Of a stretch of 64,000 nucleotides of DNA, positions 3,696 to 42,904 are shown piece after piece. The notes beneath the pieces are model-generated. The model made no database searches, had not been told where the DNA came from, and saw nothing but the letters and a program-made list of their open reading frames with translations. Every line of letters starts with the position of its first letter. Positions within the stretch are counted from its first letter, which is position 1. The position numbers were made by a program, and so were the translations under genes. Source of the stretch: Hydra vulgaris (Eukaryota; Cnidaria; Hydrozoa; Anthoathecata; Hydridae); the NCBI RefSeq assembly GCF_038396675.1, contig NC_088921.1, positions 15,412,501-15,476,500 on the forward strand, written 5' to 3'.

Positions 3696-3711
3696 TTAAT
3701 TAATTTAATAA

Positions 3712-3975
3712 CACTGCAAGTGTTGCGACTTGCCAAAAATGTATTGCAAGTATTGTGACTAGCATAAATAATACAGCAAGTGCTGTGACTTGCATAAATT
3801 ATATAGCAAGTATTGTGACTTGCCTAAATTATAAAGCAAGTGTTGTGACTTGCCTAAATAATACAGCAAGTGTTGTGACTTGCATAAATAATACAGCAAG
3901 TGCTGTGACTTGCATAAATAATACAGCAAGTGCTGTGACTTGCATAAATAATACAGCAAGTGTTGTGACTTGTTA
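3712..3975. repeat. 30-bp minisatellite
   Basis: About nine tandem copies of a 30-bp unit (core gcaagtgttgtgacttgcat) with a few substitutions. Because 30 is divisible by three, it stays open in frames on both strands (10-residue periods), which creates false ORFs. It begins just after the decayed coding remnant ending near 3695. Confidence 0.95.
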
Positions 3976-5104
3976 AATTTTTTGATAGACAGCTCTGGCT
4001 TACTTTCACGTGGTGTCTATCGTTAAAAATAATTAAAACATAGTTTCATTTCTGAAATTAATCATTTTAATCATTCACTAAAAACCAAGACAAAAATATA
4101 TTATATTATCTTTAAAATAGTTATACTTTATTTTTATTTTTTTTAACATTTTATTTATTATTTATTTTGAAACAGGAAATTTGTTTGTTAACCAAACAAA
4201 ATGGCTAGCTCGTTAACTATACTGTATGGTTTTTACTTCTGTTAATGTAATAAACACATGAAAGACTTTATTATAGGTGTTTGCTATACTTGTTTAGAAA
4301 GATGACATGTTTTTTACAGCCAATTGACTTATAATAATAACCTTACAATAGCAGTTGTACAATTTTTTCAGTAATATGTACCCAATTGAATTTTTTCCAA
4401 TTAGTTTTTGGTTTGAGAGGGAAAGGGGCATTAGCATGTACCTTTCTTATGACATATTTACGCACTCCCTTATACTCCACTCTCTTATGATCATGGATGC
4501 ACCACTAATGTATCGTTTAATCTAATGGAATATGGTTTAACTTCTTTGTTGTTGTACTTTAAATATTCAATCAGATTTTTCAAGAATTAAGCATTTTTTG
4601 ATATTATGGTACTTAAACATCATTAACATATCTACTATGAGTTTGACATTCATCTCCCATATTTGGTAGTTGTCTGATATGAATTTTTTTTTTAGTTTAT
4701 TTCTAATTTCATAGTTTTTTTTTTAATTTATAATTCAAATTTTGAAAACAGTAATTGCAATTTTTTTTTTAGGTCATGTGGAGGGGGCATACTCCCCTTC
4801 CGTAATAGAGACACCATTTGTATACTTAAGATTTTGTATAACATAATTTTATATTGTATACTAGTTTTACTCATTTTAGTAAAGTTACAAATATTTATAA
4901 AATCGAGTCGTTTTTGATACTAGGGTGTATCAAACCATCACCACCACACGCACCTCTATTGTTAACATAACCTCTCATATATTTTGGTGATTTACTATAA
5001 ATTTAAAACAACTTTTTTGTATATTTATATAAGTTATGTCTTTATAAAAAATTTATTTTCTGAAAAAAGTATTTAGTTTCATACGGGCAAGGTGGTAGTT
5101 TGGT
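3976..5104. other. No gene recognised
   Basis: AT-rich sequence with poly-T tracts near 4690-4770. No domain, RNA or repeat is recognised. Confidence 0.4.
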
Positions 5105-5623
<519 letters not shown>

Positions 5624-8099: not shown

Positions 8100-11000
8100 C
8101 AGTGGCGGATCTAGCTTTTTGGGGGCCCAGGGCTTAAAAATAGCAAGGGGCCCTAGCCCTACACGAATAAAGATTTTTAATTGATTATGCGATTAATTGA
8201 TTTTCGGTTCATTATTTAAATAAAATGAAAGACAATATTAAAGATTAATTGTTTTTATTATTATTATTCCTATTCACTAACAATCACAAACATCGTAAAT
8301 ATTTAAGCATAATAAATTCATAACAAAAACAAGTTATTTAATTTTAAGATTTTTAATGACGCAGTTTTCGAACCTTTATTAGGGCATATTCCTTTATAAC
8401 CTCATCGTAGTTTGATGACTTTGTAATTTTATGTTCTATGGATAGAAGCATTAAATCAGCCAATCTGTCATCACTCATTGTATTTTTTTGCTTATTTTTA
8501 ATATAGCTCATTCTGGAAAATGATCTTTCTGCTTCACAATTGGTTATAGGCATTGTAAGGAAAATTTTCATTACTGTGTACAAATTCGGAAAAGTATCGA
8601 TAAGGTGTTTGTCATAAATTATTTTTAAAATTTCAGCACAATTAATTTGGCTTTGCTCGTTAACTACAATTATGTTAATATATTCTTTAAAATGAATGCA
8701 TTCGTTTTTCAGCGTGGCAAAATCTTCAATATCCTCTTTATAAAACTTACATGCATTCTGCATACTGGATTCATCTATTATTTTTGTTTTCTTGTTTCCA
8801 ATATCAAATAAGAATTTAAAATTCTCAGAATTTTCCTTGTATATTTTTTTTCTTTTTTGAAATTCATTTTGAAATTTGTCCAAAACGACATTTAAGATTT
8901 CAATTTTAAATTTATTTTTCCCTGTTAAGTTGCTCCCACACCCTGTTGTACCGTCTGAGTATCTTAGTATTCTTTTTCTTTTATCTTTATATTCCGAACT
9001 AAGGTTATTAGTCTAAGTTTTTTCTAATATCTCGTATTGAGTCAATTCGGTGTCGATATTGTTTCTTTTTTCTTTAATGAATCCTTCAAGTGATGAAAGA
9101 AGAGCGGAAGCGTCTAACAAATCTAGTCCGGCTGTCTGTAATTTTTTATTTACTTTATTAATTCTTTCCAGAATTTGTTCCCAAAAAATAACCAAAATTC
9201 CATTTTCCAATGAAGTCATTTTTGAAAATAATGTCTTCGCTTCTTCTCTTTGGTCCATTTTTTCTTGGTCATCGTTTGCAATTGATTTTAAAACCGTTAA
9301 AATTTTTTCAGAATTATTTTTTAAAGCTTTAACAGCTTCATAATGGCTGCACCATCTGGTTTTGCCTAAATTTTTTAGGGTGTGCGTTTTCTCATTTAAT
9401 TTTAAAGCGTCGGTAATTGCATTCCATTTTTTAGTAGAACTTGAAAAAAACACAAATAATTGCTGAATTGTACCGAAAAATATTACAACTTCATGCACAA
9501 CTTTTGCGGCTTCTATCCCTATTAGATTTAAACTATGTGCTGCACACGGTGTACATACTGCCAACTGATTTTCTCTCTGCAGTAGTGCCCTTAAGCCGTT
9601 ATATTGGCCTGACATGTTGGCGGCATTGTCGTAAGATTGGCCGCGACAATTTTTGATGGACAAATTATTTGTATCTAATATTGTTTTGACTACATTTAGT
9701 AGAGATTTTCCAGTATGTGAAGTGATTGGGGTAATTGTTATAAATCGCTCGAATACATCACCTTGATAGCAATATCTTAGTATAATAGCGAGTTGATCAA
9801 CATGAGCCACATTCGGGGTTGAATCAACAACAATCGAATAATATTTTGTCGAATTGACTTCCTCTATAATTGTTTTTGTTACTTTTTTCGCCATTAATGT
9901 AATAATTTCTTCATACACAGTTTTGGTTAGGTAAGAAACAGAGTGTTTTTTTCCTGAACATTTCTGTATGTGCTCTTTAAGAAACGGATCGAATTCAGCA
10001 ATCATATCCAAACAGCCCATAAAATTCCAATTATTTGGAACACTAAATGTTTCATTGTGACCACGAAATGCTAAACATCGTTCACTCAAAAACTTAACAA
10101 CAGCAACAACACGCGTTGTACAATTTATAACGGCGTTCTTGTGCGGCGTAGAATTTTCGTGGAGTATGACATATTCCTCACCATGTTTCCAATCAGAGAA
10201 CCCTTTGGAAAATGTTTGTACGTTTATAGAAAATAATTTGCACATTAAACAATATATGTTTCCTGTGCTTTTCGAATAACATATCCAATTTCTTGACACT
10301 GGCTGTGCATTTTTAGGCCGTTTTTTAAATAGTTCTTCGGAAAAATATCGATTTTGTGTTTTTGAAATTCTGCACGAAGCTGCATAATCACGTTATGGAA
10401 ACCCTTATTTTGAAAATATGTCGTATCTTTGGTTAAACAAAAATTAATGAAATCGCTATTTAATATATCCGGCCATGTGCCCAAATCACAAAAATTATCT
10501 TCGGAGGGCAGTTCAACGATGTATGGGGATGTTTGAATTTCTGATGATTCAAATATTGAAACATTTTGATCATTATTTTTATCTTTAATTTGAGCTGAAG
10601 ATGTTTCGTCGATCTGGGATTGGATTGAAAAGAAGTTGGGTAATGTTTTACATTTTTTTATTGCGTCTTGCTTCTGTTTTGCTAATTTTCTTTTTTGACA
10701 CCCACTTTTATATTCACGACCCGTCATCGTTAAACCTATATAGAAATAAAATTTATATAAATTTTATTTAATATGTTATAATTTTAATACCGAGCGAATG
10801 AAAAATAATCAGCGGAATTTGCACAAATATAAACTTAATCATTCAAAGCTGAGTCGCAGGTGCACTATTTTTAAAAAAGCTAGCAAAGACACTTAACAAT
10901 TTTTCAATACAAAAGCATTTGAAAATCATCGTAGCGATAACAATGCCAATACAATTTTTATTCTCTATTCTAAAAATTTAGTTTTCGTTCGCTTGAATTT

Positions 11001-12961: not shown

Positions 12962-13064
12962 CAGGGGCGGATCCAGCATTTTTTGGTCTTTGAGATAGCT
13001 AACTTCCAGACATGGAGCAAACTCCAAACATTTATATGTTTATACTTTTGTCAAATAAGGATGC

Positions 13065-13073
13065 TTTCCGAAG
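13065..13073. other. Left 9-bp target duplication of the foldback element
   Basis: tttccgaag precedes aggaggctgaataag. It pairs with tttccgaaa at 25573-25581 (8 of 9). Confidence 0.8.
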
Positions 13074-13990
13074 AGGAGGCTGAATAAGTGCGAATTTCAT
13101 AACTGCGAATCTGCATAAGTGCGAAGCAGTTGCAAAGACTGGCATAAGTGCTAACTGGCACAAGCGCGAACTGGCATAAGAGCGCCAAAAGAATTTGCAA
13201 ACATTGGCATAAGTGCGAACTGGCATAAGTGCGAAGTGGCATAAGTGCGAATCAATTGCAAAAACTGGCATACGTGCGAACTGGCACAAGCGCGAACTGG
13301 CATAAGTGCGCCGAAAGAATTTGCAAACATTGGCATAAGTGCGAACTGACATAAGTGCGAACTGGCATATGTGCGAATCAATTGAAAAAACAGGCATAAG
13401 TGCGAACTGGCACAAGCGCGAACTGGCATAAGTGCGCCAAAAGAATTTGCAAACATTGGCATAAGTGCGAACTGGCATAAGTGCGAACTGGCATATGTGC
13501 GAATCAATTGCAAAAACTGGCATAAGTGCGAACTGGCACAAGCGCGAACTGGCATAAGTGCGCCGAAAGAATTTGCAAACATTGGCATAAGTGCGAACTG
13601 GCATAAGTGCAAACTGGCATAAGTGCGAATCAATTGCAAAAACTGGCATAAGTGCGAACTGGCACAAGCGCGAAATGGCATAAGTGCGCCAAAAGAATTT
13701 TCAAACATTGGCATAAGTGCCTATTGGCATAAGTGCGAACTGGCATAAGTGCGAATCAATTGTAAAAACCGGCATAAGTGCAAACTGGCACAAGCGCGAA
13801 CTGGAATAAGTGCGCCGAAAGAATTTGCAAACATTGGCATAAGTGCGAATTGGCATAAGTGCGAACTGGCACAAGCGCGAACTGGCATAGGTGCGCCGAA
13901 AGATTTTATAAACATTGGCATAAGTACGAATCGGCATAAGTGCGAACTAGCATAAGTGTAAATCATTTGCAAAGACTGGCATAAGTGCAA
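13074..13990. repeat. Left satellite arm of the foldback element
   Basis: A tandem array of a ~16-bp monomer (aactggcataagtgcg) is organised in a higher-order unit of about 125-127 bp. Each unit contains gcgccgaaagaatttgcaaa and a cgaatcaattgcaaaaac segment. Period starts are near 13182, 13309, 13434, 13560 and 13685. The tip (13074-13140) is unique and matches the right tip of the 42-kb copy. The long open frames on both strands are satellite artefacts. Confidence 0.95.
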
Positions 13991-14041
13991 AAAAGTCAGA
14001 ACTATTATTGTGAAAATAAAAGTCACTGATAACTGATAGAG

Positions 14042-14272
14042 AGCCAAGATGGGTCCCGGGGCAAATTTCTTTATAGGCCCTATCTTGGCTGAAAATGAGC
14101 ACCATGTAATGCCAAATTAGCTACTTTTTTTTTTCTCCCATTTTATGGGAGAAAAAAAAAAGTAGCCCGGCTTTCTTTAAGAGACCTGCTCCGGACTCTT
14201 AAAGAAAGCCGGGCCCCAGGACAACACACCCGCCTAATCCTCCCTCTCTACGGCCATGCCGATAACCACTGA
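14042..14272. repeat. Cluster of three hairpins, GC-rich
   Basis: Stem 1 is imperfect: 14042-14053 with 14078-14090. Stem 2 is perfect, 20 bp: 14121-14140 with 14146-14165. Stem 3 is perfect, 18 bp: 14166-14183 with 14196-14213, and it abuts stem 2 directly. A GC-rich tail ends in gccgataaccactg (14259-14272), which looks like a hAT-type terminus (cagtggttatcggc on the other strand). No matching second terminus was found. Confidence 0.7.
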
Positions 14273-15170
14273 AATAACCTCTGAGTGGATACTTAACTAA
14301 ATTTTTACAACTTTTATGTCAACTACATCAACATTACTCTTCACATTTTGATTTTGCTATTGTTAAAGCCATCGGTATCCAATGCAAACCAACCAAATGC
14401 TAAAAATTCAAAAATTAGTTTGAAGATGATATTCATCTCGTGCAAAAAACCAAATAACGATTAATAATTTTTACACTGACCACAAATATTATTTTTAATT
14501 ACATTATTGATAACCCGACGATTACCATTATTTGTAATGATCATTCTCTTTTATACTTTTTATTTTATTTCGGTACGCTTAGTTAAAAACAGCAGGAAGA
14601 TATGTCGAGCAGAACAGTAAGTATCATACCCTTATTGAAGGTTTTTAAAATTTTTAAGTTTCATTTTATAAAAGGTTTTATAAAAGCTTTTAAAAATAAA
14701 TTATGCTCATAAAAATATTAGAATAATTTATTTATGCTATAATAAACATATTCAAAAAAAGCACTATTTTAATATTTGAAAAAACTTTTAAAAACTTCTC
14801 CTTTTGGGTTGCCATAAAGTACGTACGAAGTTATGGGTTTCCATAAAGTACGTTTGAAGTTATTTTTTATAAACTTTTCTGGTTTTTGAAAGTTCATTCA
14901 AAAATTTAATAAAGCAAAAGAGAGCACAACCACAACTGTTGTAAATAACACTATAGTCATTAAATATTGATATTCATTAGAGTCATTAGAATAAACTCAA
15001 GTTTATTACAAAAATAAGCAAGAAGTTGTTCGTCAATATTTATAGTTTTATAGGTTAATAATAACCTATAGGTTATTTTAACCTATAATAATCGAACAAC
15101 TATTTTATAATTGTCCTTAATAACACGTTATTGGTGGTAGCCAGTCGGTTTTCAAAATCTGTAGTATCAG
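14273..15170. other. Foldback interior, no gene recognised
   Basis: AT-rich. A direct repeat of ccataaagtacg is seen at 14812-14823 and 14840-14851, and a small palindrome around 15048-15085 (aggttaataataacct). Confidence 0.4.
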
Positions 15171-15179
15171 TATTTTTTT

Positions 15180-15790
15180 ATTTAAGAATGAAGGCAACGA
15201 CATCAAAAGAATTGATTAGTTAAGGCAAAAAACTGAGGAATATGTTATTAAAAATAAAAATGACTTTATGTCGGCAGATGATGCTGTCGGCAGATAATGC
15301 TGTCGAAATGTTTACATCGAAAACAACGATGTAAAACTTATTCCGTTTGCACCCATTCTATCTATTGCTGGTAGAATATTTGTTTTTAAAATGAAGTCTG
15401 AAAATAAAGACGATTATAAATGCAATCATTATAGATGGAAAAATAATAAGAATAATAAGTTCTAAGAATAGCAAAAAAGGTTTTAAAAAAACTTATTATC
15501 TTACCCAAACTACTGCAGGCCAAAAACATTGTACATCCGCAAATTTCAGTAAACAAGTGTTCATAAAAAAACTACCAAAGGTCTTATTGCTATTATCTAT
15601 TATTAAGGCAATGAAAAATGTGGTGTAACAGATTTGAAACACGGAAACAGTTAAATTGACCATTCATACATTCGCACTGCATCGTCTGTAGTGTCATGTA
15701 TAAAAAAAGTTTTAAAACCAAATAATAAACTACAAAATATTTATGAAAAACTAATGTTTGAATCAAATGTGATTCAAACATTAACAAACG
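15180..15790 (+). pseudogene. Decayed ORF in foldback interior, possible second gene
   Basis: Plus-strand frames contain KLIPFAPILSIAGRIFVFK, then DDYKCNHYRWKNNKNN, then TTAGQKHCTSANF, and finally SYIRTASSVVSCIKKVLK, broken by several stops and shifts. The composition and the Cys/His/Trp-containing block look coding rather than random AT sequence. It resembles N-terminal regions I associate with some animal transposase-linked proteins, but I cannot name the family. It could be an upstream part of the MULE gene, a separate accessory gene, or an unrelated insertion. Confidence 0.35.
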
Positions 15791-15799
15791 AAAAAAAAA

Positions 15800-17250
15800 A
15801 TAGGTCGCGCAGGGTCGTCAAATTTTCATGAGTTTTTTCATAAAAAAAAATAGGCTAGGCTCCTTATGCAGGTAAGAAAACGGTTAAAAAATAACTTTTT
15901 TCGTTGTAATGAGGGTTTTAGGCCACTTTTGAAGATTTAAAAATCGTGTAAACTTAAAATTACCTTAAAATTATCAGCTTACTAGGGAGTTTTTAAAGCA
16001 CATTTTTTATTCAAAATGGCATAAACATTTAAACTAGGAGATTTTAATTAAAAATCTTAAACTTCAATGAAAATGAACTAAAAACAGGTTCTAAAATATG
16101 GAAAATGGTTCATCACAAAGAAAATAAACTATATAATTAGGTTCAATTTCTTTTAAGACCAAAATATGCTTATTTTTTTTTAAGTAAATAAGATCTCTGG
16201 CAATGCTTTTGTATTCATTTTCTGATTTTATTTTTCAACGGATTCATATAGACGATCATTAAAGATGTAACTTTCCATTGAAACTAGTAGATACCGGAGA
16301 GTAGCAGTTTTGAATCTTAGCATATCAAATTTATTTTTAAATAAACATTGCATTTTTAAAGAATAATGAATCTATAATATATAATACGAGAACATTTGGT
16401 TAATTTTTACTTGAGCATCCGTCTAATTTATTCCTTAAATTTTTTTTATCATGATTAGGCGTAATATAAGTACTTGAAATTTTGAATTGGAATATCATAT
16501 ATTCAATATGGAGAGTTATATTTGGATTTTTTTAATATATTTTATGTTATGGTTTTAAGTTATGGTTTACTGCGTTAATTGAATTTCCAAAAATTTTTGG
16601 AAAACCGCTAAGAGAGACTTGAAAATGTTTAATTTATTTATTTTTTTAATTTGCTGTTTTGAACACAAAAAGTTATTTTGCATTTAGCGCATTTATTGTA
16701 ACACTATTATCTTTAAACTTTAAACTTTTTTTTTATTATCTTTAAACTTTTGAACAAAATGTTTAAACTGGATACATACTCAATGACTCAAGTCATATTT
16801 TACTATGAGTTGGTATATTTCATGAAAAAAATGCGAAAAAGTAACATAGGCCCACATTACCCCACTCAGTGGGCAGGGCCATCCCGAACGAATCAAATCG
16901 ATCGTTATTAAATCTATTCTAATATGAAATGATATGAATGAAATTTTTTCTTATTCGGTTGTTTTTTTTTATTTACAGAAGTAAAGAAAACAGTTAAATT
17001 CGAATGGAGAAAGTAATTAAAATAAGTGCTTTGGGTTAAAAATGGAATTTCGTTAATTCGTTTTCAGATAAAACATTCCGGTACAAAGAAGAAGAACTGG
17101 TTGGTGACACACAAAATCGAATTTTTTTAAGTTTAGTTTATAAATGTTAGAACGATTAGTACGTTCTTATTAAATTTAATGTTAACGCTTCAATTTATTA
17201 TATCAAAGTACAAAAAAGTATAGTAAAAGAAAACTTTTCTTTTTTTAGTT
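15800..17250. other. Noncoding foldback interior upstream of the MULE gene
   Basis: AT-rich with no domain. A short hairpin gcccacattaccccactcag tgggc lies near 16849-16873. A pyrimidine tract and AG at 17231-17248 could be a splice acceptor for an unseen 5' exon of the transposase gene. Confidence 0.4.
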
Positions 17251-17260
17251 AAACGTTAAA

Positions 17261-19757
<2,497 letters not shown>

Positions 19758-20041
19758 TTTGCTTGATAAATGTTCATATACAAACTTTTTTGTTGAAATT
19801 TAACAGTATAGTTGTATTCAAAACTAAATTTATTTGAACTTACAAAAAAATATTTTTATTTGAACTTACAAAGAATCATAATATTTACAAATAAAATAAA
19901 TAAATCATAAAACATTAAATTTGAGATTTCGAAATGCAATTTTGTTTGTCGAATAATTAAAAATTACGTTTATTATTTAAAAAAATTGTAGCCACTTAAT
20001 ACTATCATCAATATGAAAGTATCATTTTTACAGACCTATAT
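19758..20041. other. 3' flank of the MULE gene
   Basis: AT-rich, with AATAAA-like signals near 19890. A short direct repeat (tttatttgaacttacaaa) occurs at about 19828 and 19856. No gene. Confidence 0.4.
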
Positions 20042-21228
20042 GGGGCTGTTAATACGTGACAGTTTTAAGGTGGGAGGGGGGATCAGAAAGTGTTACCAAA
20101 TGTCACATGGGAGAGGGGTTAGCTTCAGTGTAACGTGACAAATTTAAAAAAAATTTTATTTTTTATTTTTTTTATTTTAGTTTAGAATATATTTTGCTGT
20201 TTAATAAAATAAGTTACATAAGATTATCACGTAATAAAATATATAAACAAATAAGACAATATAAAAAACAGACCGGGACTCAAAGAAGATATGGGTGATG
20301 AAATACCACCACAATCTTTTCATAGAGCCCCTTGAAAAAATAAAATGTCGTCAAAATGTTCAATTAAACTGCAAATAAAAGTAAGATGTTAAAACTTTAA
20401 ATTTAAATACTCAAGGATTTAAAATATATACACCATTGCATAAATAACTACAAAAGATATGTACAATTAATTTTTCAAAGAATAAAAAAGTAAAACTATT
20501 TTGATAAAACTTAACGGAGTTCTTGTAATTCCTCCGAATTAAAAATGTGTTTTTTTGCTAGCAACTTAAATGAGTTTAATGATTTTACCATATTATCTTT
20601 TTTAGCTTCTATTTTTTTAAAATAGTTCCATATTTTTTGTCCGCGAAATGCTATTGAACACTCTGTAAACTTGTTTAGTTTCTTAGGCAATTTAAAGAAA
20701 TTTGATTGGTTTGTTCTAAGGAAATACTTTTCATTTATATTTTTTTTAAACTTACAATTAAAATTTACTGGAGTTAGGTTATTTGTAAACTTATACATAA
20801 AAATTAGGTGTTGATAAATATTTATTTCATAAATATTCATCATTTTCATGTCAAGCATTAAGGGTTTCGTGTGCTCCCTTCTTTTTTTTCCGTATATAAT
20901 TCTACACGCATGTTTTTGAACACTAAGTATTTTTTTAAGTTTAGTAGTTTGCGTGCTGCCCCATGTAATATTGGCATAACTGATAAAACAATGAATTAAA
21001 GAGAAGTAAATTAATTTAAGACATATAATATTAAAAATTTAAATTTTCATCACAGCGGAACCAATGAAAATGTTAGCGAAAAGTTGAAAAATTGGGTAAA
21101 AATAACGCCACGTCTCATATTGGAAAAAGGGAGGAGGTTGACAGAAAATGTCATAAAATGTCACATGGGGGAAGGGTGGGGTGTCTAAAAACAGCCAAAA
21201 AGATGTTACGTATTATTTGAACAGCCCC
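20042..21228. mobile_element. MITE (family M) split by a LINE 3' end
   Basis: The terminal ggggctgtt (20042) and aacagcccc (ending 21228) match those of the intact 304-bp copy at 39049-39352. So do internal blocks: gtgtcac-like caaatgtcacatggga, cagcggaac, and tctaaaaacagc. The copy is cut between about 20150 and 21030 by LINE sequence. Flanks are tat and taa, compatible with a 3-bp target duplication. Confidence 0.85.
20150..21030 (-). pseudogene. CR1-like LINE 3' end inserted in the MITE
   Basis: Minus-strand coding from about 21010: SYANITWGSTQ, QKHACRIIYG, then 20858-20511 with IYQHLIFMYKFTNN and CSIAFRGQKIWNYF, the usual C-terminal end of the LINE ORF. A 3' region follows, with a GC-containing inverted motif (gggact ... 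agccccttg, 20274-20333). Adenines of the minus strand run to about 20150. Strongly 5'-truncated. Confidence 0.8.
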
Positions 21229-21925
21229 TAACTTAAAAACAAACTAATATTTAAATTAAATCTAAAACCAATTAAAACATTATCATAAAGGTCTTTATTC
21301 TATGTAGTAAAGTTCAAGTTCCGCATAATTGCTTTGCCCGAATAGAGCTGTAACCAGGGGATTTAGGTGGTCTAGAACCCCTTAGTATTTAAAACTATTA
21401 ATTTTCTTTTTAACGAAAAGCTTAATAAAAAATCTTAAAAAATCATATATTGTGATATATCAATTAATGTTTCAAAGAAAGAATGAAACTCCGCAATAGT
21501 CAATAGTCAAATGTAATCAAAAACTTTTGAATATTGATTATTTGTGTTTCATTTAAAATAAACTGAAATTTAAAACCAGTTTAAAATAGTTTGCTTAAAC
21601 TAATTTTCAACTTATTTTAGACAAATGATTTTATATAGTTCTCACTTCTCCCGCTCGCTTGTCCCACTTCTACTCACACCTACACATCAATAAATTTCTG
21701 GAAAAATTATAACACTGCGGGTTTCAATAAATGAAAAATAATTGAAGTAAGAAGTGTTTTAAAATATGAAATTTACATTGCCTATTGTTAAGTTAATAAT
21801 GGTATGAAGGATATGTATATATTTGAACATAATTTTAAAATTTAATTTCAAAAGACAAAAAATGAAAACTGAAAAACTGAAACGGAAAAACTGTTATGAA
21901 AAACTAAATGTAGTAAAACGCGTGA
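21229..21925. other. Foldback interior, no gene recognised
   Basis: AT-rich noncoding sequence between the MITE and a LINE endonuclease fragment. Confidence 0.4.
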
Positions 21926-21929
21926 AAAT

Positions 21930-22905
21930 TTAGTACATACTGATAAAGACCGCAAAAAATAAAAACGTGGCTATAGAGTACATTGAGATCGATTGTATAT
22001 GTGCCACAGCGTAAAAATGACTAAAAAAAGGTTCTCTTCACATTCCGGAGATTATTTGTATAAATTACGACAATTAAAGTAGAAGATGTTAACGTTGTTC
22101 TGGTTGCGCTTTTTATTAGTTGCTTGAAACCATAGAATCTTAACATTGATTTTATTTCAGTGTGATCACTTGACCTCATGTAATTAACATAAATATCTCT
22201 AATTAAAAATTTTTCTAATAAATTAGGTTATTTAGGTTTAGATATCATTTCTGAAAATAGGTTAGAGAAATTGTGGCTAAGGTATTTCGAGTCATCCGGT
22301 AGGCAATATAGGACACAAAACAATATACTCTTCGTCTTTGGAAGTATTTTTTCGAAACAAACGCTCTCTATTTCGTTGGATTTGAGATCGTTACGTCTTA
22401 CCTAGTTTAACTTATTAGATATGTAAACGGCAACACATCCACCACGTCTGTTTTTACGTATGCTGCTTAGAAATGCATAACTCTTGATATGATATAGTTC
22501 ACTAGGGTCGTCCTTGCTTATATGGGTTTATATGGGCGAATATGTCAATGTTTTTGTTGCAGTTAAACAAATAAATGATGCTAAATGTTCCATAGGCCAC
22601 GGATATTTAAATGAAAACATTGTAAGCATTTCATATACAGAATATTTTCAAGTTTCTCCATCACTGAAATAATATGGTTCAAATACATTGGTCCAGGTCA
22701 TAGTTCTATGTCACCTGATAATAATAACATAACTCTTAGGAAAGCATGTTCTTTTAGTATAATTTTATTTTCTGGTTGGTATTGCCATAAAAATATTTGT
22801 ATAAATTTCAACTCAAATTCTATAGTTTCAAGAGATGTTTCAGAATAACATATCAAATTTGAATTTTGTAAGGACGTCACTTTAACAGTTATTGTAGCGT
22901 AGATT
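21930..22905 (-). pseudogene. LINE endonuclease fragment with a 2A-like motif
   Basis: Minus-strand order: an N-terminal leader ending in LLLSGDIEL, TGA, PGPMY (22727-22684), then HLNIRG-like sequence, then SKDDPSELYHIKSYAFLSSI, RRGGCVAVYISN, and further SSDHTEIKSMLRFYGFKQLI (about 22190-22120) and IYTNN. These are endonuclease-domain blocks of a CR1-type LINE. The leader matches the 2A ribosome-skipping signature (GDIExNPGP), with the Asn codon replaced by a stop. Several frameshifts are present; it is dead and has no reverse transcriptase part here. Confidence 0.75.
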
Positions 22906-23105
22906 AGAAGTGTAATATAGATATAGTTAAACTTTTTAAGAAAGTATTCTTAAATACATGCAATATTTATAAAGAAAACAGCTTTAAATTGAAATATTTC
23001 ATATGAACCTGGCTGATGGCGTAGAATAAAGTAATAAAATGATGTAACTTCCAAATCTATTATATTGTTTTTTCTTCTTTTAAAACTTTATATTAAAATA
23101 TAAAG

Positions 23106-23136
23106 TACCCCCCCCCCCCACACACACACACACACA
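23106..23136. repeat. (C)n(CA)n simple repeat
   Basis: A run of about 13 C followed by about nine CA units. Confidence 0.95.
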
Positions 23137-23139
23137 CTA

Positions 23140-23400
23140 CTGTGTGACGTCTAGAAAGACGTCTTTAGTTTATCCGGATACGACGTTCTCAAGACTTTTA
23201 TATGAGTCCAATTTAGGATGTCTAACGGAGAAGAAATCTAATATAAATGAGTACAGCATAGAGCCACCGAACTAGTTACATCAATTAGCCGTTTGTGCGA
23301 TGAAGATCGATCCTCCTAGCACAAACAACTAATTGATGAAGCTAGGTCGGTTGCTCAACGCTACACTCATTTAACTATCATGTCTCTTCAAACCAAGAGG
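23140..23400. repeat. Inverted-repeat block
   Basis: A hairpin with gacgtctagaaagacgtc near 23146. A longer imperfect stem follows: tcaattagccgtttgtgc (23281-23298) with gcacaaacaactaattga (23320-23337). Noncoding, of unknown origin. Confidence 0.6.
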
Positions 23401-23479
23401 GGGGGGGGATCGAACTTTACATTGTCATTTTTTTGGCATATATGTATACATAAAAACAGTGATCGATTAACAAAATGAT

Positions 23480-23845
23480 AGATTATTAGAAATAATTTTC
23501 TAATATTCGTGTTCTAAAATTATGACCATAAAAAGTTTGATTCATTCCCTCCCCCCCCCCCCTCCCCCTTCGATTTGAAGAGATATTAAACTTTGATGGG
23601 TCATAAAAACCGAACACAGCAGATTATTTCTAGAAATTTTAAATTTGTAGATAAATTGAAAATAATTTAATTATGGTAAAGTAACTTCTTTTTTTTTAGT
23701 TTTTTTTGGTTCCCAGGCTGCAATCATTACAGTACTTGGCAAAGCATCCTTATTTGACATTAACATAAACATATACATGTTTGGAATAATTAAACACTAA
23801 AAAATGAGGTCAACGCCCCCTGATGAATCGATATCATTTATAACA
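23480..23845 (-). mobile_element. Degenerate copy of palindromic element family P
   Basis: The central hairpin is around 23560-23585 (C-run plus cttcgatttgaag) and is flanked by aaaattatgaccata and its partner. The right arm has ggttcccaggctgcaatca, gcatccttatttgaca and actaaaaaatg, as in 25930-26070. It ends near acgccccctga (23814-23824). Confidence 0.65.
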
Positions 23846-25104
23846 AAAGACTTGAGCTCAACTATAATCCATATTTGTCCATAAGTTTATTTATGCTTGG
23901 GCTAAGTAAAGTGTTACAAAAACGTTAGGGCATACTAAGAAAAGTACTTTGAAAAAATGCTTGTATAAAAATTAAATTTTCATATCTTTTTTTCTTATTT
24001 CAATATATGGTGTCTTTGACCTAATATGTAGAGTTAAGACATTAGAATAGAAAAAAATTGTTTCTCTGGCTTCATTTTATTTTTCATTTTGACTAATATT
24101 TGAAAAATAAAATATTACCATTTCCCTGGTAAAATTGATATGCTGAACCTAAAAATTAAGTATGGTTAATATTAAATCAGTTTTTGAATGACTAACACAA
24201 TATTGATTTTGCATGGTTTTGCTTACCTCAAGCCCAACTATGCAATGACTAAATTAACACTCAGTAATAAAATTACAATTAAAATTTTATTTTTTTGGAA
24301 ATACGAGTTGATTAAAAATGTTACATTTAAAAAAGTTGACGAACTTGATTTCCTTACAAATTAAAAGTTCACAAACTTAATGTTCAGGCCCGTGTACAGG
24401 CCTGACATATGAACATATATTGCCCGTATACGAACAACAATTGTAAATTGTTAACTATAAATATAGTTTGAAATAAATAAATAAGACATGTAAATTCATG
24501 AACTTTGTTTTAAAAGAAAAAATTTAAAATGTTTTGTGTGATGCTCGGATTAATTGTAGGAACTACAACTTGATTAAATTGGTTGTCACAGCATGCTTTA
24601 CTCTATGTTCACTATGCATGCTCACTGGACAAGTTACAGCAATAAAGAAGAAAATAAGTCAAACTATTAAGTAGTATTTTGATAAACAAAAGCTTGTTTA
24701 TCAAAACGGCAAACAACTTGTAAATATTTTATATAAAGAATATTTTAAACATTGTGTGGAGTAACCTCGTAATTCATTGGAAAGTTCAACAACCTCTTTT
24801 AATACTTTTATTAACAAAGACTGTAACACGAGCCCACTACCGGGCCTAACCAACTTTGGAAAAAACGTTTATTAAAGCCCAATTTATTAGGAGCCTTTGA
24901 TAAAAAAAAAAAAGATCTAAACGGCTTCGTGGCATTGAGGCCACTAAGCCTTATAGAACCCTCACTAAGGTGTCCCGTTCCCGCACAGTTTTTGAACGAC
25001 AACACCAACTTTTAAATTGAGTTTTAGACAAAGAAAATAATAATATTTACTGAGTATTTTTTTAAAATAAAAAAGTTCAAGAGTCCCCACTAAGAAAAAG
25101 TTGA
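23846..25104. other. Foldback interior, no gene recognised
   Basis: AT-rich. A hairpin around aggcccgtgtacaggcct (24386-24403). A moderately GC-rich patch at 24825-24990 (gagcccactaccgggcc near 24830) gives a 65-codon minus-strand frame with no recognisable motif. Confidence 0.4.
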
Positions 25105-25572
25105 AAAATCTATTCGGTGCACTTAAGCAACCGCCCTCTTATTCCAAAATTTTCAAATTTTTTCGGCGCACTTATGTCAGTTCGCACTTATGCCGCACTT
25201 ATGCCAGTTTTTGCAATTGATTCGCACTTATGCCAGTTCGCACTTATGCCAATATTTGCAAATTCTTTCGGCGCACTTATGCCAGTTTGCGCTTGTGCCA
25301 GTTCGCACTTATGCCAGTTTTTGCAATTGATTCGCACTTATGCCACTTCGCACTTATGCCAGTTCGCACTTATGCCAATGTTTGCAAATTCTTTTGGCGC
25401 ACTTATGCCAGTTCGCGCTTGTGCTAGTTCGCACTTATGCAAGTTTTTGTAAGTGATTCGCACTTATGTAAGTTCGCACTTGTGCCAGTTCGCACTTATG
25501 CCAGTTCGCACTTATGCCAGTTGCACTTATGCAGGTTCGCAGTTATGAAATTGGCACTTATTCAGTCGCCCC
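25105..25572. repeat. Right satellite arm of the foldback element
   Basis: The same 16-bp monomer as the left arm, in inverse orientation (cgcacttatgccagtt), with the same higher-order segments (tttgcaaattctttcggcgc). It ends with the unique tip gcaggttcgcagttatgaaa ... cttattcagtcgcccc. About half the length of the left arm. The open frames are artefacts. Confidence 0.95.
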
Positions 25573-25581
25573 TTTCCGAAA
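25573..25581. other. Right 9-bp target duplication of the foldback element
   Basis: tttccgaaa, one mismatch to 13065-13073. Confidence 0.8.
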
Positions 25582-26085
25582 AATGGTTGGAGCCTGGGAA
25601 CAAAAAAAACCCATAATTTTTGCCCCCTGCCCTAAACGTGAGAGCAACAAGTTAATAAAAAAAACAGTTTTCTATTTTTTCACTAGACATATATTCGTCG
25701 ACAAATTTCAAATTTTATAGTAAAAATTTTAGCGTTTAAAAATTATGACCATATAGAAAATAAACCCCCCTCAATTTGAGGGGGTTGGAAATTTTACATG
25801 GTAATAATTTTTGAACGCTAAGAAATTATACTACGAAACTTTAAATTTGTCGATGAATAAGTCTAGTTGAAAATAGAAAAAAAAATTTCATTAACTTGTT
25901 GCTCTCACATTTGGGGCAGGGAGTGGCAAAATTTTGGGGGTTTTTTTGTTCCCAGGCTCTAATCATCGCAATTTTATGCAAAGCATCCTTATTTGAAATA
26001 AGCATAAACATATAAATGTTTGGAGTTTGCTCCATGTCTGAAAGTTAGTTATTTTGATGACTAAAAAATGCTGGATCCGCCCAAG

Positions 26086-31059: not shown

Positions 31060-32440
31060 TTTTTTTTTATACGTGTTTTATTTTACAACTACAAAGTAAT
31101 TACAAGTTGCCAATCACTGATTGGCAGTAAAGATATACAAATTTAAATCATAAATATAAAGTTCAAAATATACGAGGTAAATAAAAATATAGTTGCTTAC
31201 AACTCCGAGACATGAATAAAATAAATACCAATTACAACAATATAATAACGTGTAAGTAAAAATAATCCCAGAAATATATCTCTATATTACTCCAATAAAA
31301 ATAAAAAATACAATAAATAAAAATAATCTGCTGATTTTTTGGAGGAGAGTTTAGATGTTTCACTTTAAGTTAATTTACCACATTTCAAGATAATGTTAGT
31401 GTATAAATATGATAAAAACAAAATTCGTGTAAGATTGGTAAAAAGAAATACTTATTTGTAGTCATAGGAAGCTCGCAGAAGACTTAAGTCAGTCTTGTCA
31501 TCGAGTACCTATTTCTTAGACGTGTAATACACATAAAAAATCAGTTGCATACGTGGTATATATATATGTGTTACATATATACCTTGTTATTAATATTATT
31601 TTTATTATCGATTTGTATTAAAAGTTAAGTTGCATTTATTTATTTATTCAAATTTAAAAAAATTCCTTACAGTTGTTTAATTTGATTATTGTAGATTTTA
31701 GCTTTTTTTCAGAGAGTGTTCATTGTTTAAGTTTAATAGTGATTCGTTTCTGGAAACTAATTTGTTAAATAAATAGGGACCACGATATGTAACTGAGAAT
31801 TTTGAGAGTCTTGTTGTTTCAAAAGGTATCTTAAAGTTGCCTGTTGCTCTTGTATTGTATTTATTTATATTGTTTTTAAAAAAGTGTGCTGTAAAATGCT
31901 CTGGAACCAGACTTAGTTTGTATTTAAACATGAAAAGTATATTTTGAAAAATATTTACTTGGAATATATTTAGTGCGTTCATTTGTTCATGTTGAGCATG
32001 AGCAAATTTGCTTTTGTTGTATACTAGTCTTGAAGCGTGTTTTTGACGTAAGTAAAGTGGTTGTAATTTAGATTTGTGGGTACTGCCCCATGCTATATTG
32101 GCATACATGAGATAACTATGCATGAATGAGAAGTAGATAAGAACTCCTATAAACTTTGTATTCAGAGCTCTTTTGGATATATTTTCTATATTAATTGTTG
32201 GTAGGTTCAGGGGTATTTTGTTAATTTGTTGATTAGAGTGAAATAGTATATACTTAGTTTTTTCTATATTGAGTGACAGTTTATTTGATTTAAACCATAT
32301 GTTAACTTTTTTTAGTTCAGCATTTGTTTTTTCATAGAGGTCTTCGATTGTCTTTGACGAGTAAAATAAATTTGTTTTGTCGGCAAACATTATAGTTTTA
32401 AAGATATTAGAGGCGTTTGGAAGATCGTTTATATAAATAA
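31060..32440 (-). pseudogene. CR1-like LINE, 5'-truncated
   Basis: The coding part is 32440-31698 on the minus strand. It carries LFLIYINDLPNA, MFADKTNLFYS (the catalytic box with the second Asp replaced by Lys), LSLNIEKTK and ALNTKFIGVLI. A deletion removes about 30 residues, and it continues with MYANIAWGSTHKSK, LYLRQKHASR, NKYNTRATGNF and YRGPYLFN. About 600 bp of AT-rich 3' region down to 31060 includes a small inverted motif (agttgccaatcactgattgg, 31105-31124). The Lys in the catalytic box means it cannot be active. It serves as reference for the LINE split by the nested elements. Confidence 0.85.
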
Positions 32441-33912
32441 GAAACAAAAGAGAAGCAAGAATGGAAACTAGAATGAAAAGAAAACTAGAAGGAAACAAGA
32501 ATGGAACTAAAATAAGTAACTATGGCTACGAGTCAAAAAAACACAAAATAGCTACAAGCTTAACACAATCAGACAAAAAATTTTTGCTGTAATAAAAAAA
32601 TGTAATAAAAGTAATTGAAAAAGATTTATAGGCTGTCATATGGATTTGAAACTTTGATGTTTTTAATGCATTAAATTAAAGATTTATAGGCAATATAATA
32701 ATAGTTAATGCTGATATATATTTAATATACTGGACAGTTGATGCTAACAACTAATATCAATTTATAGAGTTGTAAATGACTGGAATGTACTAACACAAGA
32801 AATCATCGGGTTAACAAACGTAAATCAATCTAAGAACCACATTGATAAATACTTTAAATCTTAACCTCAAATCTCAGGTCTTGTATATTGTTTTTAATTC
32901 TTGTTAAATTTTTGGCTGTTATTGACTGTTATAGACTGAACTCTACATATTTCAGTTTCAACTCCTATGAGTTACAGCGTCATTTATAACTATAATAACT
33001 TTGTCATAGCCTGGGCTCGTGTTATATTTTATATATAATAAAACACTGCGCAACTCGATTATATTCAGGGTGAAGGCGTCTATGATGGCATAATGCCTAT
33101 GATGGCATACCGGTCATTATTTCATAAATATTGGTTATGACATAAAAGTGATTAGATTAACATGTCTATACTGACTTTACATTAGTTTTAGTAAAAATAC
33201 GTCCTTATGCACTAATATTGCTTTTATAATTAACAAAAATCGATTTCGGGATGTGTTGTTGTATTTTTAATCCCTTTAAATATTTAAGATTGTGATTTTA
33301 TTATTAACTGTGCAAAAATGAAATTTTCATGCATTTTGTTTCCAAGTTTTGTGCATTTAGTGGAATATTTATTTTAATTTTATCTTTTGAACAAGGCAAA
33401 CATTAAAGCTTGTTTAAATGAAAATGATGACTTCTTCCTATGATATCATACTGACGAATTAGGTGTGTTGCAATATTGACGAGTTGAGAAAACCTTTTTT
33501 TTTGTCATAAAAGCAACACTTTTTAGTGAAGTAAAAGGAATTTTTATTTCAGTAAAAAAATTTGCTTCAAAAAACACATAAAACGCAATATCTCTTAAGC
33601 GCATGCGCAAAATTCTACACTGCTGTGTAGCACGAAATGGATAATTAGAATAATTACGCGTAATTTGTGGCATTTCTAAGGAAAGGCTCTAAGGTTAAAT
33701 GAAATCGTCAATTTACCCTTGATGCTAACTAACCCCATCCTCCCCTATGCTATCATAGGAGCAATAGTTGCCCATGACGACATACGTGTGCTTTTTTTTT
33801 AAATAAGAATAACTAATAAAAAAATAAAACTGGTGAAAACTCCTAGGGTTATTATTCTTCTACATGTAACAAAAATGTATCCATATTGAAACTTTTGTTC
33901 TTGGTCTTCGGG
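32441..33912. other. No gene recognised
   Basis: AT-rich. A direct repeat (tctatgatggcat / cctatgatggcat) is at 33078-33102. The minus-strand frame 33673-33446 has no motif. Confidence 0.4.
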
Positions 33913-35489: not shown

Positions 35490-37808
35490 TTTATTAGAAC
35501 AAGTTTAAAAAAAAACACATGTTCTAAAGGACATACAGGTCCAATAAATAGACACTGACAATATGCCCTTAAATAAGAAAACAAAGTACATAGAAACAAA
35601 TATAGTTTATAATAGAAACATTCAAGATATCATTCATTTACTTTATTTACAAAATTGCACGATTTTATTTTATTTTTAAAAATACAAATGTTATCAGCAT
35701 TTACTGCTTCTGATGTCAGATTATTCCAGATATTTACAACTCGTTGAGAAAAACAATATTTGCGAATGTCGAGTTGACATCGTTGCTTGCAAATCCTTAA
35801 AGTATGACCACGAGCATAATTATTATTGTTAATTTCGAAAAACAAGTTTTTATCTATGCAAACCAAATTATGCATAACTTTGAAACATATAACTAAATCA
35901 TGTTTTAAACGTCTGAGTTCCAGAGAATCGAAACCAAGCAGCTGTAAACGGCTAGAATAGCTTAAACAACTACTATCGGCATTTTTTTTTGTGAATCGCT
36001 TTTGAATATTTTCAATAGACTTTATTAACATAGTTTGGTGTGGCGACCAAACTGGAGAGCAATATTCAATAATTGGTCTTACATAAGTGGTAAATGCACG
36101 TAATAATATAATAGGATTGCGAGTTTTAAAGCATTTTAAGATTAGGTATGCTCTAGTATTTGCTACATGAGTGACTCTGGCAATGTGTTTTTTGTAGTTT
36201 TGGCGGGAGTCTATAATTACTCCAAGATCTTTTGGGTTAGATGACCATCTAGAATACAAACACCTAACTTGTAATTAAAACTAATACTATTCAATGGAGA
36301 AAACGCTATTCTGTGTGCAAAATATTTCTTGCTGGCAATTGGCAACTGCCAAGTATCCGACCAAATAATTATTCTATCAAGAGCAACAGTTAAATCGTGG
36401 CTATGATTCATATTGTGATACGAACTGTATAATTTTAAATCATCAGCAAAAATTTTTATTGTACATTCAAGATTGTTTACTACAGATGATAAGTCATTTA
36501 TAAATAATAAGAACAAAGTTGATCCTAGCACACTACCCTGAGGTACACCACTAACAATTCGAATCGGATCTGATAAAGCGCTACTAATCTTTACCTGTTG
36601 AGATCTGTCTGTGAGAAATGCAGTGATCCACTTTAAAAGGTTACCACGAATATTGTATAATGAAAGTTTGAATATTATTTTTGAATAAGATACGGAATCA
36701 AACGCCTTTCGGAAGTCAATATATATATATATATATAACATCTGTAATCAGATGATTGTCAAGTGCGGTACTCCAATCGTTAGTAGATTCTAAAAGATTT
36801 GTGCATGTAGAACGTTTATCGAGGAAACCGTTCTGACTAGGAGATATTATGTTATACTTATTTAAATACTCAACAATATGTGAGTTGATAATCAAAAAAT
36901 TGGGGAAACGAAAGCTTTGCGCCATTGATTAGGTAAAACGTTTAATGTAAAACTAGCCTCAAAAATATATGAAAGAGGAAAACATAAAACATGAGCTAAC
37001 TTTTTAAGAATTGCATTAGGTAAACTATCAGAACCAAACGAGGTACTTGGATTAATTCCCATTAGGGTTTTATACACTGACTTCACGGAAAAATGAACCG
37101 TATTAATACTTATTGGATCTTTACCATAAGTGACAATATTAGAAAAATAGCAATTATCGTCCGTAAAAACACTTCCAAAGTGATTATTAAACACGTTAGC
37201 AATTTCTATATTACTGGAAGTGACCTTGTTATTGTTATTTTTGTCTATTAGATGGTGGTGCTTATTAAGGATATTCATTTTATTATTAACATATTTATAA
37301 AACTTGCTAATTTCATTTCCTTCTACTAGGTTTAATTCAATTTTCGATTGGTAATTAATTTTCCATAATAATACTTTGCGGCTTAATATTTTTTAAATGT
37401 ATTTTGGATAGTGATTACTCGTTTTGTTATAATACTTTTTTCTAATAGGTACAAATTCATTAATACCAGTACCAAAAAGCCTTAGAAAAATGCTCCAGCA
37501 ATCCTCAGTTGTACAGGCACAATAAAACTCAAAATCCCAATTTATTTTTGATAAATATAACTCAAGGCTCTTAAAATCAGCATTAGAAAAGTCGTAGAAA
37601 GATTCTGGTTTATTTTCACACTGAAACCGTTCGTATTTATAGAAAATTGGACTTTGTTATGGTCGCTAGTGCTAAAAGGACACTCAACAGATATATCACT
37701 TATGAGAGAACTGTTATTCAAAAAAAACAAGATCAAGAAAACTCATATTGCACGTGGGTCCTTTAACAAATTAGTGCAAATCGAGTACGTTTACCAAATT
37801 TAAGAATA
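35490..37808 (-). pseudogene. CR1/Jockey-like LINE, 5'-truncated, with full reverse transcriptase
   Basis: Minus-strand order: end of the endonuclease (LDLVFFLNNSSLISDIS and CPFSTSDHNKVQFSIN, about 37800-37640), linker, and a reverse transcriptase N-terminal part in 37278-36892 (VKSVYKTLMGINPSTSFGSD). Then come FLDKRSTCTNLLESTNDW (36800 region) and DFRKAFDSVSYSKI (36716). GVPQGSVLGSTLFLLFINDL (36545) and FADDLKLYSSYH (36450) form the catalytic box. C-terminal domain 36259-35630 carries NPKDLGVIID, YVRPIIEYCSPVWSP, LELRRLKHDL and SQRVVNIWN. A handful of frameshifts; the palm is otherwise conserved. A short (TA)n sits at 36719-36737 within the coding region. Role in life: target-primed reverse transcription. 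Confidence 0.87.
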
Positions 37809-42017: not shown

Positions 42018-42026
42018 CAAGATGAT
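42018..42026. other. Left 9-bp target duplication of short foldback
   Basis: caagatgat, identical to 42896-42904. Confidence 0.93.
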
Positions 42027-42895: not shown

Positions 42896-42904
42896 CAAGA
42901 TGAT
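42896..42904. other. Right 9-bp target duplication of short foldback
   Basis: caagatgat, identical to the left copy. Confidence 0.93.

Follow-up and report, generated by a model that had tools for sequence, protein, structure and literature searches.

The 12.5-kb stretch at 13073-25572 of the window (the whole 64,000 nucleotides of Hydra vulgaris DNA that were analysed) is one mobile element, with tip B at its left end and tip A at its right, and not two stray arrays. Based on the sequences of this stretch and its relatives, it is very probably a gene-bearing copy of a Hydra family of cut-and-paste Mutator-like elements (MULEs), the TIRs of which have grown into foldback satellite arms. A sequence-only reading of the window had proposed a single foldback-like element between 13.1 and 25.6 kb, in agreement with the common tips, the 8/8 duplication, the empty site and the collinear copies described here. 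The features of the element and of a short relative are:

13065-13072, no strand: left target-site duplication TTTCCGAA, 8/8 with 25573-25580
13073-25572, + strand: whole element, defined by tips, duplication and empty site; copies on C1 and C4 are collinear
13073-13079, + strand: tip B motif GAGGAGG, then CTGAATAAGTGCGAATTTCATA; 236 exact genome copies of GGAGGCTGAATAAGTGCGAATTTCATA
13080-13991, + strand: left satellite arm, a 126-bp higher-order repeat of ~16-bp units (TRF, self-BLAST)
13992-17260, + strand: left non-coding interior, including the arm-adjacent DNA at 14000-14700
19758-25116, + strand: right non-coding interior, collinear with the C1 and C4 copies
~20050-21229 and 23389-23780: nested pieces in the right interior, the latter a family-P piece
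25117-25565, - strand: right satellite arm, inverted (TRF, self-BLAST)
25566-25572, - strand: tip A motif GGGGCGA (inward reading); 209 exact genome copies of GGGCGACTGAATAAGTGCGAATTTCATA
25573-25580, no strand: right target-site duplication TTTCCGAA, 8/8 with 13065-13072
42027-42896, - strand: 870-bp gene-less copy, arms only, with flanks AAGATGAT at 42019-42026 and 42897-42904

Tips, arms and target-site duplication

The two tips are unequal: GAGGAGG (B) and GGGGCGA (A) are each followed by the common CTGAATAAGTGCGAATTTCATA, and as a rule an element carries one of each. The core TGAATAAGTGCGAA, with at most two mismatches, has 51 matches in the window relative to 0.66 expected, and only four of these (13081+, 25551-, 42035+ and 42875-) contain the tip-specific TGAATAAG. 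The exact matches to tips B and A listed above were counted across the Hydra vulgaris genome (911 Mb); reversed-pattern controls gave 0 matches for tip B and 0 for tip A. A search of viral contigs with the exact tip and unit patterns returned 0 matches, as did a search of genome contigs with the exact unit pattern. In the window copy, tip A carries one change, at GTGCC.

The inverted satellite arms that had been described at both ends are recovered by TRF, which finds 6.3 copies of the 126-bp higher-order satellite in the left arm (13084-13881) and, at 25138-25547, similar repeats in inverted orientation. By self-BLAST, the left and right arms match at ~84% in inverted orientation, and the match to the 42-kb copy is 86-94%. 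This copy, rightly recognized before as a short relative with one tip of each kind, has its tips in the order opposite to that of the 12.5-kb element. As a single strand, it is predicted to fold into a long hairpin (-486.5 kcal/mol versus a mean of -151.9 kcal/mol for 20 shuffles). Tip pairing was assessed on C1-C6 (6 of 15 contigs), for which the tip lists are complete (97 of the 236 B tips and 95 of the 209 A tips). On these contigs, an A tip faces 62 of the 97 B tips at a distance of 273-1062 bp, and for 31 there is no exact facing A tip within 30 kb. Other arrangements within 1.5 kb are rare or absent (wrong strand, 1; outer side, 0; B-B, 0; A-A, 2).

Exact 8-bp duplications flank both the 12.5-kb element (TTTCCGAA) and the 42-kb copy (AAGATGAT). 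In 23 short pairs, drawn from loci L001-L030 (30 of 41 matches, ranked by similarity to the left end of the window element), the duplication is exact at 8/8 in 16, 7/8 in three, 9/9 in two and lacking in two; an 8/8 match at a fixed pair of places has a chance probability of 0.0003. The length is set at 8 bp because, as seen in the genome copies, the G that precedes AGGAGG belongs to the element itself. A 9-bp duplication, which the sequence-only reading had favored and for which flanks with one mismatch do exist, was rejected: if tip B is taken as 6 bases, agreement at the ninth base is limited to 3 of 19 pairs with an 8/8 or 7/8 duplication, which is close to chance. The paired tips that a genome search had been expected to reveal were found, but with duplications mostly of 8 bp rather than 9 bp. 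As had also been proposed, removal of the stretch restores a family P arm. The joined flanks align across the junction, apart from a 6-bp gap there, to the partner arm in inverted orientation (404 of 509 columns) and to the copy at 5104-5459 (78%).

Further copies in which the arms surround the MULE gene had been anticipated, and six gene-bearing copies, including that of the window, could be read at both ends. In five of these (12.5-22.7 kb; the window, C1, two on C4, and C7), tip B precedes the gene and tip A follows it, and the duplication is exact at 8 bp. The sixth, C8:55.767, has its tips the other way round with respect to the gene and shows no clear duplication. Unrelated ends, named beforehand as evidence against a single element, bound the gene in none of the six. 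The DNA adjoining the left arm (14000-14700) lies upstream of the gene and on the same strand at 26 of 31 gene loci, and is reversed at 0. These 31 loci were obtained from 121 protein matches, one per locus, with further exons of listed loci and matches of ~27-33% identity (other MULE families) left out. For the arm-adjacent DNA, 34 long pieces of 93 matches were kept; second pieces, short self-hairpin matches and five matches of ~80-107 bases were set aside. In the two copies compared (C1 and C4), the interiors are collinear from arm to arm at 90-98% identity, and the C4 copy is without 20156-21030 (window coordinates). The family-P piece at 23389-23780 is absent from the C1 copy and mostly kept in the C4 copy. 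All three copies with compared interiors are damaged: the window copy by a stop at codon 8, the C1 copy by loss of 16968-19306 and C4:13.49 by loss of 17824-18653.

The transposase and its RING

The RING-bearing MULE gene previously placed between the arms is upheld by a four-exon model with a MULE domain (PF10551, Pfam 6.1e-12, above the cut-off) and a RING (3.1e-8). Annotated, near-identical Hydra vulgaris proteins bear out this model:

17261-17872, + strand: exon 1, FLYWCH-like finger and first catalytic Asp; in-frame stop at codon 8
18170-18367, + strand: exon 2, second catalytic Asp and CxxH
18508-18868, + strand: exon 3, catalytic Glu
19126-19757, + strand: exon 4, linker and C-terminal IAP-type RING

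In an alignment of 26 sequences, D243, C264 and H267 are invariant, and D181 and E369 are conserved in at least 90%. A CxxH between the second D and the E is a mark of MULEs, and the MULE domain, the DDE residues with CxxH, and a duplication (8 bp) within the 8-11-bp range together place the element among them. The FLYWCH-like stretch has no Pfam FLYWCH match on the Hydra protein; it aligns with P0034, P0032 and P0023, in which Pfam recognizes FLYWCH, and both C and HxH are kept in this alignment. The RING is of the C3HC4, IAP type and ubiquitin-ligase-like; RING models match the Hydra transposase, and no PHD model does so at E up to 1. Due to the stop at codon 8, the window copy itself is probably unable to make the full protein, though in trans its ends may still serve. 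The paralog P0001 reads through the stop position. Neither this stop nor the FLYWCH-like part and the nested insertions had been mentioned in the sequence-only reading.

In the proposed mechanism, the FLYWCH-like stretch would bind either the tips or the ~16-bp repeat units, and the DDE domain would cut at both tips and insert with an 8-bp stagger; the short copies would move in trans. The RING would recruit an E2 enzyme, and the resulting ubiquitination of the transposase itself or of its partners would set the transposase level.

Alternative origins of the arms and the RING

By chance, two satellite arrays or two independent insertions of arms alone could have come to lie around a host gene or a MULE element unrelated to them. 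Arms do occur without the gene, and on C1-C6 the short pairs (62) outnumber the gene loci (9 of the 31 listed). This explanation is nonetheless scarcely credible given the 8/8 duplication common to both ends, the restored empty site, the recurrence of both tips and an 8/8 duplication in four further copies with the gene, and the linkage of the gene with arm-adjacent DNA. It was rejected, as the arm-to-arm collinear copies refute it unless all are assembly errors of one kind. It is likewise very improbable that the arms, which do resemble a 126-bp higher-order satellite, are host satellite DNA entered or captured by a MULE with its true ends inside: the duplications adjoin the outer tips and not the inner edges, and pairing is between an A tip and a B tip. 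Around the gene, inner ends were sought as 14-base ends agreeing at 11 or more positions, with an exact duplication: lengths of 8 and 10 bp yielded 0 pairs each, and 9 bp yielded 1, which is low-complexity. At 10/14, the scan gave 5, 4 and 2 pairs for 8, 9 and 10 bp, respectively; 20 plain shuffles of the 8-bp case at this setting gave a mean of 1.4 and a maximum of 5. An inner MULE with its own ends was rejected based on the lack of a convincing inner pair and the collinear interiors.

If a foldback MULE is accepted, it might still be a true cnidarian relative of Drosophila FB-NOF with a NOF-type transposase as its driver. Tandem-repeat inverted arms around a gene would fit, and MULE-NOF is among the repeat families annotated in a Hydra genome paper (PMC12220107). 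The duplication of 8 bp rather than 9 bp, and the FLYWCH-like stretch with its hemipteran FLYWCH-MULE relatives, which point to Phantom-type MULEs, make this descent unlikely. The RING, in turn, is possibly, though not probably, a fusion without function in transposition. Exon-4 dN/dS is 0.91 among 11 copies, namely the window copy and 10 further loci; of 16 such loci tried, six lacked a plus-strand match and were set aside. For the RING part, the value is 1.9, on few changes; therefore, the recent family shows no visible purifying selection. In contrast, the RING label appears on 18 of 25 non-Hydra matches of the first protein search, the C-terminal placement is as in Hydra in seven scanned RING-labelled non-Hydra proteins and in A. 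pisum P0030, and the cysteine/histidine pattern is present in all seven proteins tried. MULE-RING proteins are found in the pea aphid, a planthopper and 17 further database proteins, and the named non-Hydra relatives are hemipteran insects and one snail. We tentatively suggest, as a somewhat doubtful reading, that a MULE branch across animals, and perhaps other eukaryotes, has an IAP-type RING fused to the transposase end and drives the Hydra foldback family, with the RING serving as a self-limit (or in host repressor removal) via ubiquitin. Ubiquitin-based self-control of cut-and-paste transposons did not appear in the portions of the literature searched.

Comparison with known systems

Foldback MULEs are an already known kind; what is new is a transposase that ends in an IAP-type RING, inside a foldback element of ~12 kb. 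Some foldback families, such as Tetris, are described without their moving enzyme (PMC4079207). In Hydra, a laboratory animal, a single genome supplies the enzyme gene along with the two tips, the length of the duplication and many short copies. Therefore, both the arm sequences needed by the transposase and a ligase role of the RING on the transposase can be tested. The element also illustrates that a transposon end can resemble, and perhaps seed, satellite DNA.

In Drosophila FB elements, the inverted arms are long and built of tandem repeats, a gene may or may not lie between them, and the target duplication is 9 bp. The Hydra family shares such arms and an optional gene, and differs in its duplication, which is exact at 8 bp in 16 of 23 pairs and 9 bp in 2 of 23. 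Both PMC4079207 and the reference list of PMC8277862 cite FB and FB-NOF. Rehavkus is described in PMC6446971 as MULE-like, with a minisatellite before the 3' inverted repeat, a PHD finger and a 9-bp duplication. The likeness to Hydra lies in a MULE-like transposase with a zinc finger and in tandem repeats at an element end, whereas Hydra has a C3HC4 RING, an 8-bp duplication and satellites at both ends.

The Phantom subclass of Mutator reportedly combines FLYWCH with a MULE transposase (Marquez and Pritham 2010), and some of its members are reported to have foldback-like or sub-terminal inverted repeats. Phantom is cited in PMC3169594, PMC6446971 and PMC4079207, and a table in the second of these gives it a duplication of 8-10 bp and lists no RING in that entry. 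The Hydra element is similar in its foldback-like termini and in its 8-bp duplication, which falls within this range, and differs in its RING.

The closest match is Tm1, a Mutator/Foldback family of root-knot nematodes (Meloidogyne). As described in the available part of PMC3169594, the arms of Tm1 are composite and built from tandem units of ~14 bp, and its two 7-bp tip motifs (A1/A2, CGGTTAA/CCTACCC) are unequal, generally with one per end. Tm1 also has duplications of 8-10 bp (mostly 9), a spliced FLYWCH + MULE transposase gene and short non-autonomous copies; one copy has the same motif at both ends. Tm1 and the Hydra family share unequal outer tips, one of each, tandem-repeat arms, a spliced MULE gene and short copies. 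In contrast, Tm1-A measures 2.6 kb (Hydra, ~12 kb), is a single element per isolate examined (Hydra, five gene copies with both ends and the same polarity), and is described in that part of the source with no mention of a RING. The Hydra family differs further in its 8-bp duplication, its 126-bp higher-order arms, its IAP-type RING, and its unit and tip sequences (GAGGAGG/GGGGCGA). The link to Drosophila FB-NOF in particular, drawn in the sequence-only reading, is not supported: with its unequal tips and FLYWCH-like finger plus MULE domain, the Hydra element fits MULEs of the Phantom type whose ends are foldback-like, Tm1 foremost among them, at least as well as FB-NOF, where kinship to Phantom is judged by anatomy and published description and NOF is set apart by description.

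Arms, tips and target duplication

In the large element (13073-25572, + strand), TRF finds a 126-bp repeat of 6.3 copies at 13084-13881 and, inverted, a repeat of the same kind at 25138-25547. Each 126-bp arm unit is made up of ~16-bp subunits. The internal CATAAG is replaced by the outer motif TGAATAAG at four sites: both ends of the large element and both ends of the gene-less, arms-only 42-kb copy (42027-42896, - strand). Outside this motif the ends are unequal, with AGGAGG on one side and GGGGCGA on the other. The tips run from B (GAGGAGG) to A (GGGGCGA) in the large element and from A to B in the 42-kb copy, which has 870 bases, one tip of each kind and exact 8-bp flanks, and which folds back onto itself along most of its sequence. 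The inverted satellite arms (13.1-14.0 and 25.1-25.6 kb), the two different tips and the short copy that the sequence-only reading had claimed are thus borne out.

Exact tip B (27 bases) occurs 236 times and exact tip A (28 bases) 209 times in the host genome (G000, 911.5 Mb, 15 contigs), with no copy of either reversed pattern. The window's own A tip carries one change and is absent from the exact list. Pairing was counted on contigs C1-C6, where the site lists are complete (97 B, 95 A). An A tip lies opposite at 273-1062 bp (median 715) for 62 of the 97 B tips and at 3.9-22.7 kb for 4 more; 31 have no facing exact A tip within 30 kb. The exceptions on these contigs are one A tip inside on the wrong strand and two A tips facing A tips; no A tip lies on the outer side of a B tip, and no B tip faces another. 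The coupling of one A with one B in nearly every facing pair suggests that the ends play different parts in the reaction.

The duplication length was determined from 23 short pairs in loci L001-L030 (30 of 41 genome matches), with tip B set as GAGGAGG. Flanks agree at 8/8 in 16 pairs, 7/8 in 3 and 9/9 in 2, with none in the remaining 2. With the shorter tip used earlier, the ninth base agrees in 3 of the 19 pairs having 8/8 or 7/8, and a G precedes AGGAGG at 31/31 such tips in these loci (the search query itself contained the G). These counts set the usual target duplication at 8 bp, in place of the 9 bp previously proposed; it is exact at the large element (TTTCCGAA) and at the 42-kb copy (AAGATGAT).

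The gene-bearing unit

A protein search of G000 gave 121 matches, among which 31 loci of the transposase family were counted, fragments included. The placement of the MULE gene between the arms, also claimed before, recurs in four further copies with the same order, B upstream and A downstream of the gene, as in the window.

Gene-bearing copies elsewhere in the genome
C1 22894199-22909554: exact facing tips, 8/8 duplication CATTTTTC; gene placed by coordinates, interior aligned below
C4 13481152-13497923: exact facing tips, 8/8 duplication TATACATT; gene placed by coordinates, interior aligned below
C4 33871107-33893849: 22.7 kb, exact facing tips, 8/8 duplication GTTTTTTT; gene placed by coordinates
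C7 about 13545133-13558447: 8/8 duplication TTTTTTAA

Two of these four duplications are almost homopolymeric and carry less weight. One-ended copies are concordant, with A downstream of the gene at C2:17.98 and C4:49.1 (18 kb away in the latter) and B upstream at C9:41.44 and C8:52.709. At C8:55.767 the tips are reversed (A 5' and B 3' of the gene), and its flanks have no in-register duplication, only an out-of-register TAAAAC in common. C8:52.756 has tip B 3' of the gene and an outer flank nearly identical to that of C8:55.767; the two probably derive from a regional duplication after a recombination event. C8 holds ten of the 31 gene loci, at 50.1-61.0 Mb, and the two with a common outer flank are the two with gene-reversed tips. 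At C1:10.35, the 9 kb of upstream sequence that were read show no arm unit.

The C1 element matches the window at 94-98% over 13073-16967, 19307-22210, 22467-23388 and 23781-25547; missing from it are 16968-19306, which hold most of the gene, and 23389-23780. The C4:13.48 element is collinear with the large element at 90-97% but has gained and lost several segments independently; 20156-21030 is one of its losses, while most of 23389-23780 is kept. By this collinear alignment with both elements, the interior was inherited as a single unit that later took up insertions and suffered losses. The 701 bases that border the left arm on its inner side (14000-14700) lie upstream of the gene on the same strand at 26 of the 31 loci, and within 25 kb no case contradicts this arrangement. 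The loci without it are C14:39.59, C6:32.95, C8:50.12, C8:52.756 and C3:5.98, the last a diverged gene copy. At C9:33.25 and C12:22.64, non-homologous stretches occupy the expected place of the left interior, which is found farther upstream.

Repeats in and around the interior
12965-13072 + 25581-26082: family P, palindromic (about 620 bp with flanks joined), host of the large element
5104-5462: family P
23389-23780: family P, within the large element
14120-14214: two adjoining hairpins just inside the left interior, present in several other copies
20050-21229: nested inverted-repeat element, ends GGGGCTGTT...AACAGCCCC; similar copy at 39062-39352
20511-21038: LINE-like fragment inside the nested element, no Pfam match

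The segment 20156-21030 of the nested element is also absent from the C8:52.756 relative.

Transposase, related elements and neighbours

Four-exon transposase gene (+ strand, GT-AG model)
17261-17872: exon 1
18170-18367: exon 2
18508-18868: exon 3
19126-19757: exon 4

The model has 600 codons before the final stop, and codon 8 is itself a stop. Its start and exon junctions agree with a Hydra paralog (P0001), which has no stop at that position, and with the compared protein P0002. Four annotated Hydra vulgaris proteins share 88-96% identity with the encoded protein, which identifies the host as Hydra; Pfam matches are MULE (6.1e-12) and RING (3.1e-8). Across 26 sequences, no variation occurs at D243, C264 and H267 and very little at D181 and E369. 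Pfam FLYWCH has no match at the N-terminus of the Hydra protein; P0034, a compared protein that does match it (3.3e-6), aligns with this N-terminus from residue one and shares its GY.Y, two Cys and HxH. The RING resembles BIRC7 (8.8e-11), BIRC3 and BIRC2 chains up to the last residues, C-terminal tail included; in IAPs, the C-terminal RING tail serves dimerisation. The AlphaFold2 model of P0001 has a mean pLDDT of 74. Values reach 90 or more at 176 of 516 residues, chiefly within the catalytic part, and drop to about 41-57 across the N-terminal 60. MULE and RING are both labelled on 18 of 25 non-Hydra matches (17 unnamed proteins and one from Nilaparvata lugens), and also on one Acyrthosiphon pisum protein.

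Exon 4 of the window is 99.84% identical to those of C7:13.55 and C9:41.24, so the family probably spread recently. Its dN/dS of 0.91 among 11 copies is the value expected of copies drifting after insertion. The family is built as a unit, with unequal tips in pairs, 8-bp duplications and a linked gene, and it has short derivatives. Judged from sequence, the encoded DDE enzyme would move the element by cut-and-paste, the FLYWCH-like stretch may recognise the arm units, the short copies would be mobilised in trans, and the RING may regulate the system.

Among related elements, L075 (C6:42617300-42621420) is a 3.9-kb element with both tips, an 8/8 duplication CAATAAAT and a different interior, a candidate for either captured cargo or a nested insertion, with a 670-residue open frame (no Pfam match above cut-off). 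The arm-only relative at L022 120-661 is diverged: its tips are GGAAGG and GGGATGA and its units are altered, which points to an older subfamily. At L026/L069 (C9 about 41450475-41450536), ~60 bp lie between the B end of a gene-bearing element and the A end of a short copy distinct from it.

Neighbouring features in the window
3707-3979: 30-bp tandem array AATAATACAGCAAGTGTTGTGACTTGC, internally symmetric
8353-10763 (-): hAT transposase pieces, DUF4371 and hAT dimerisation domain
31698-32519 (below the curated cut-off) and 36217-36747: reverse transcriptase fragments, probably LINE
43577-44696: piggyBac-type transposase fragments, DDE_Tnp_1_7

Comparison with known systems

MULE-MuDR and MULE-NOF are among the repeat families named in a Hydra genome paper (PMC12220107), so MULEs in Hydra are not new as such. 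Among the open-licence papers listed for Hydra foldback or Phantom MULEs and for MULE transposases with a RING finger, no title or abstract describes the present family or a RING-fused foldback MULE. Phantom is listed without a RING by Dupeyron et al. (PMC6446971), and Ghost has one in a separate ORF; Rehavkus carries a PHD finger, and a C3HC4 ring finger is given for one Phytophthora element. The suggested filing as a cnidarian FB-NOF-like system is unsupported, and the large element is instead classed among Phantom/Tm1-like foldback MULEs, its transposase bearing a RING. Phantom elements are said to include foldback-like termini, as cited in PMC3169594, and Tm1 of root-knot nematodes, described there, has nearly this anatomy at a smaller scale.
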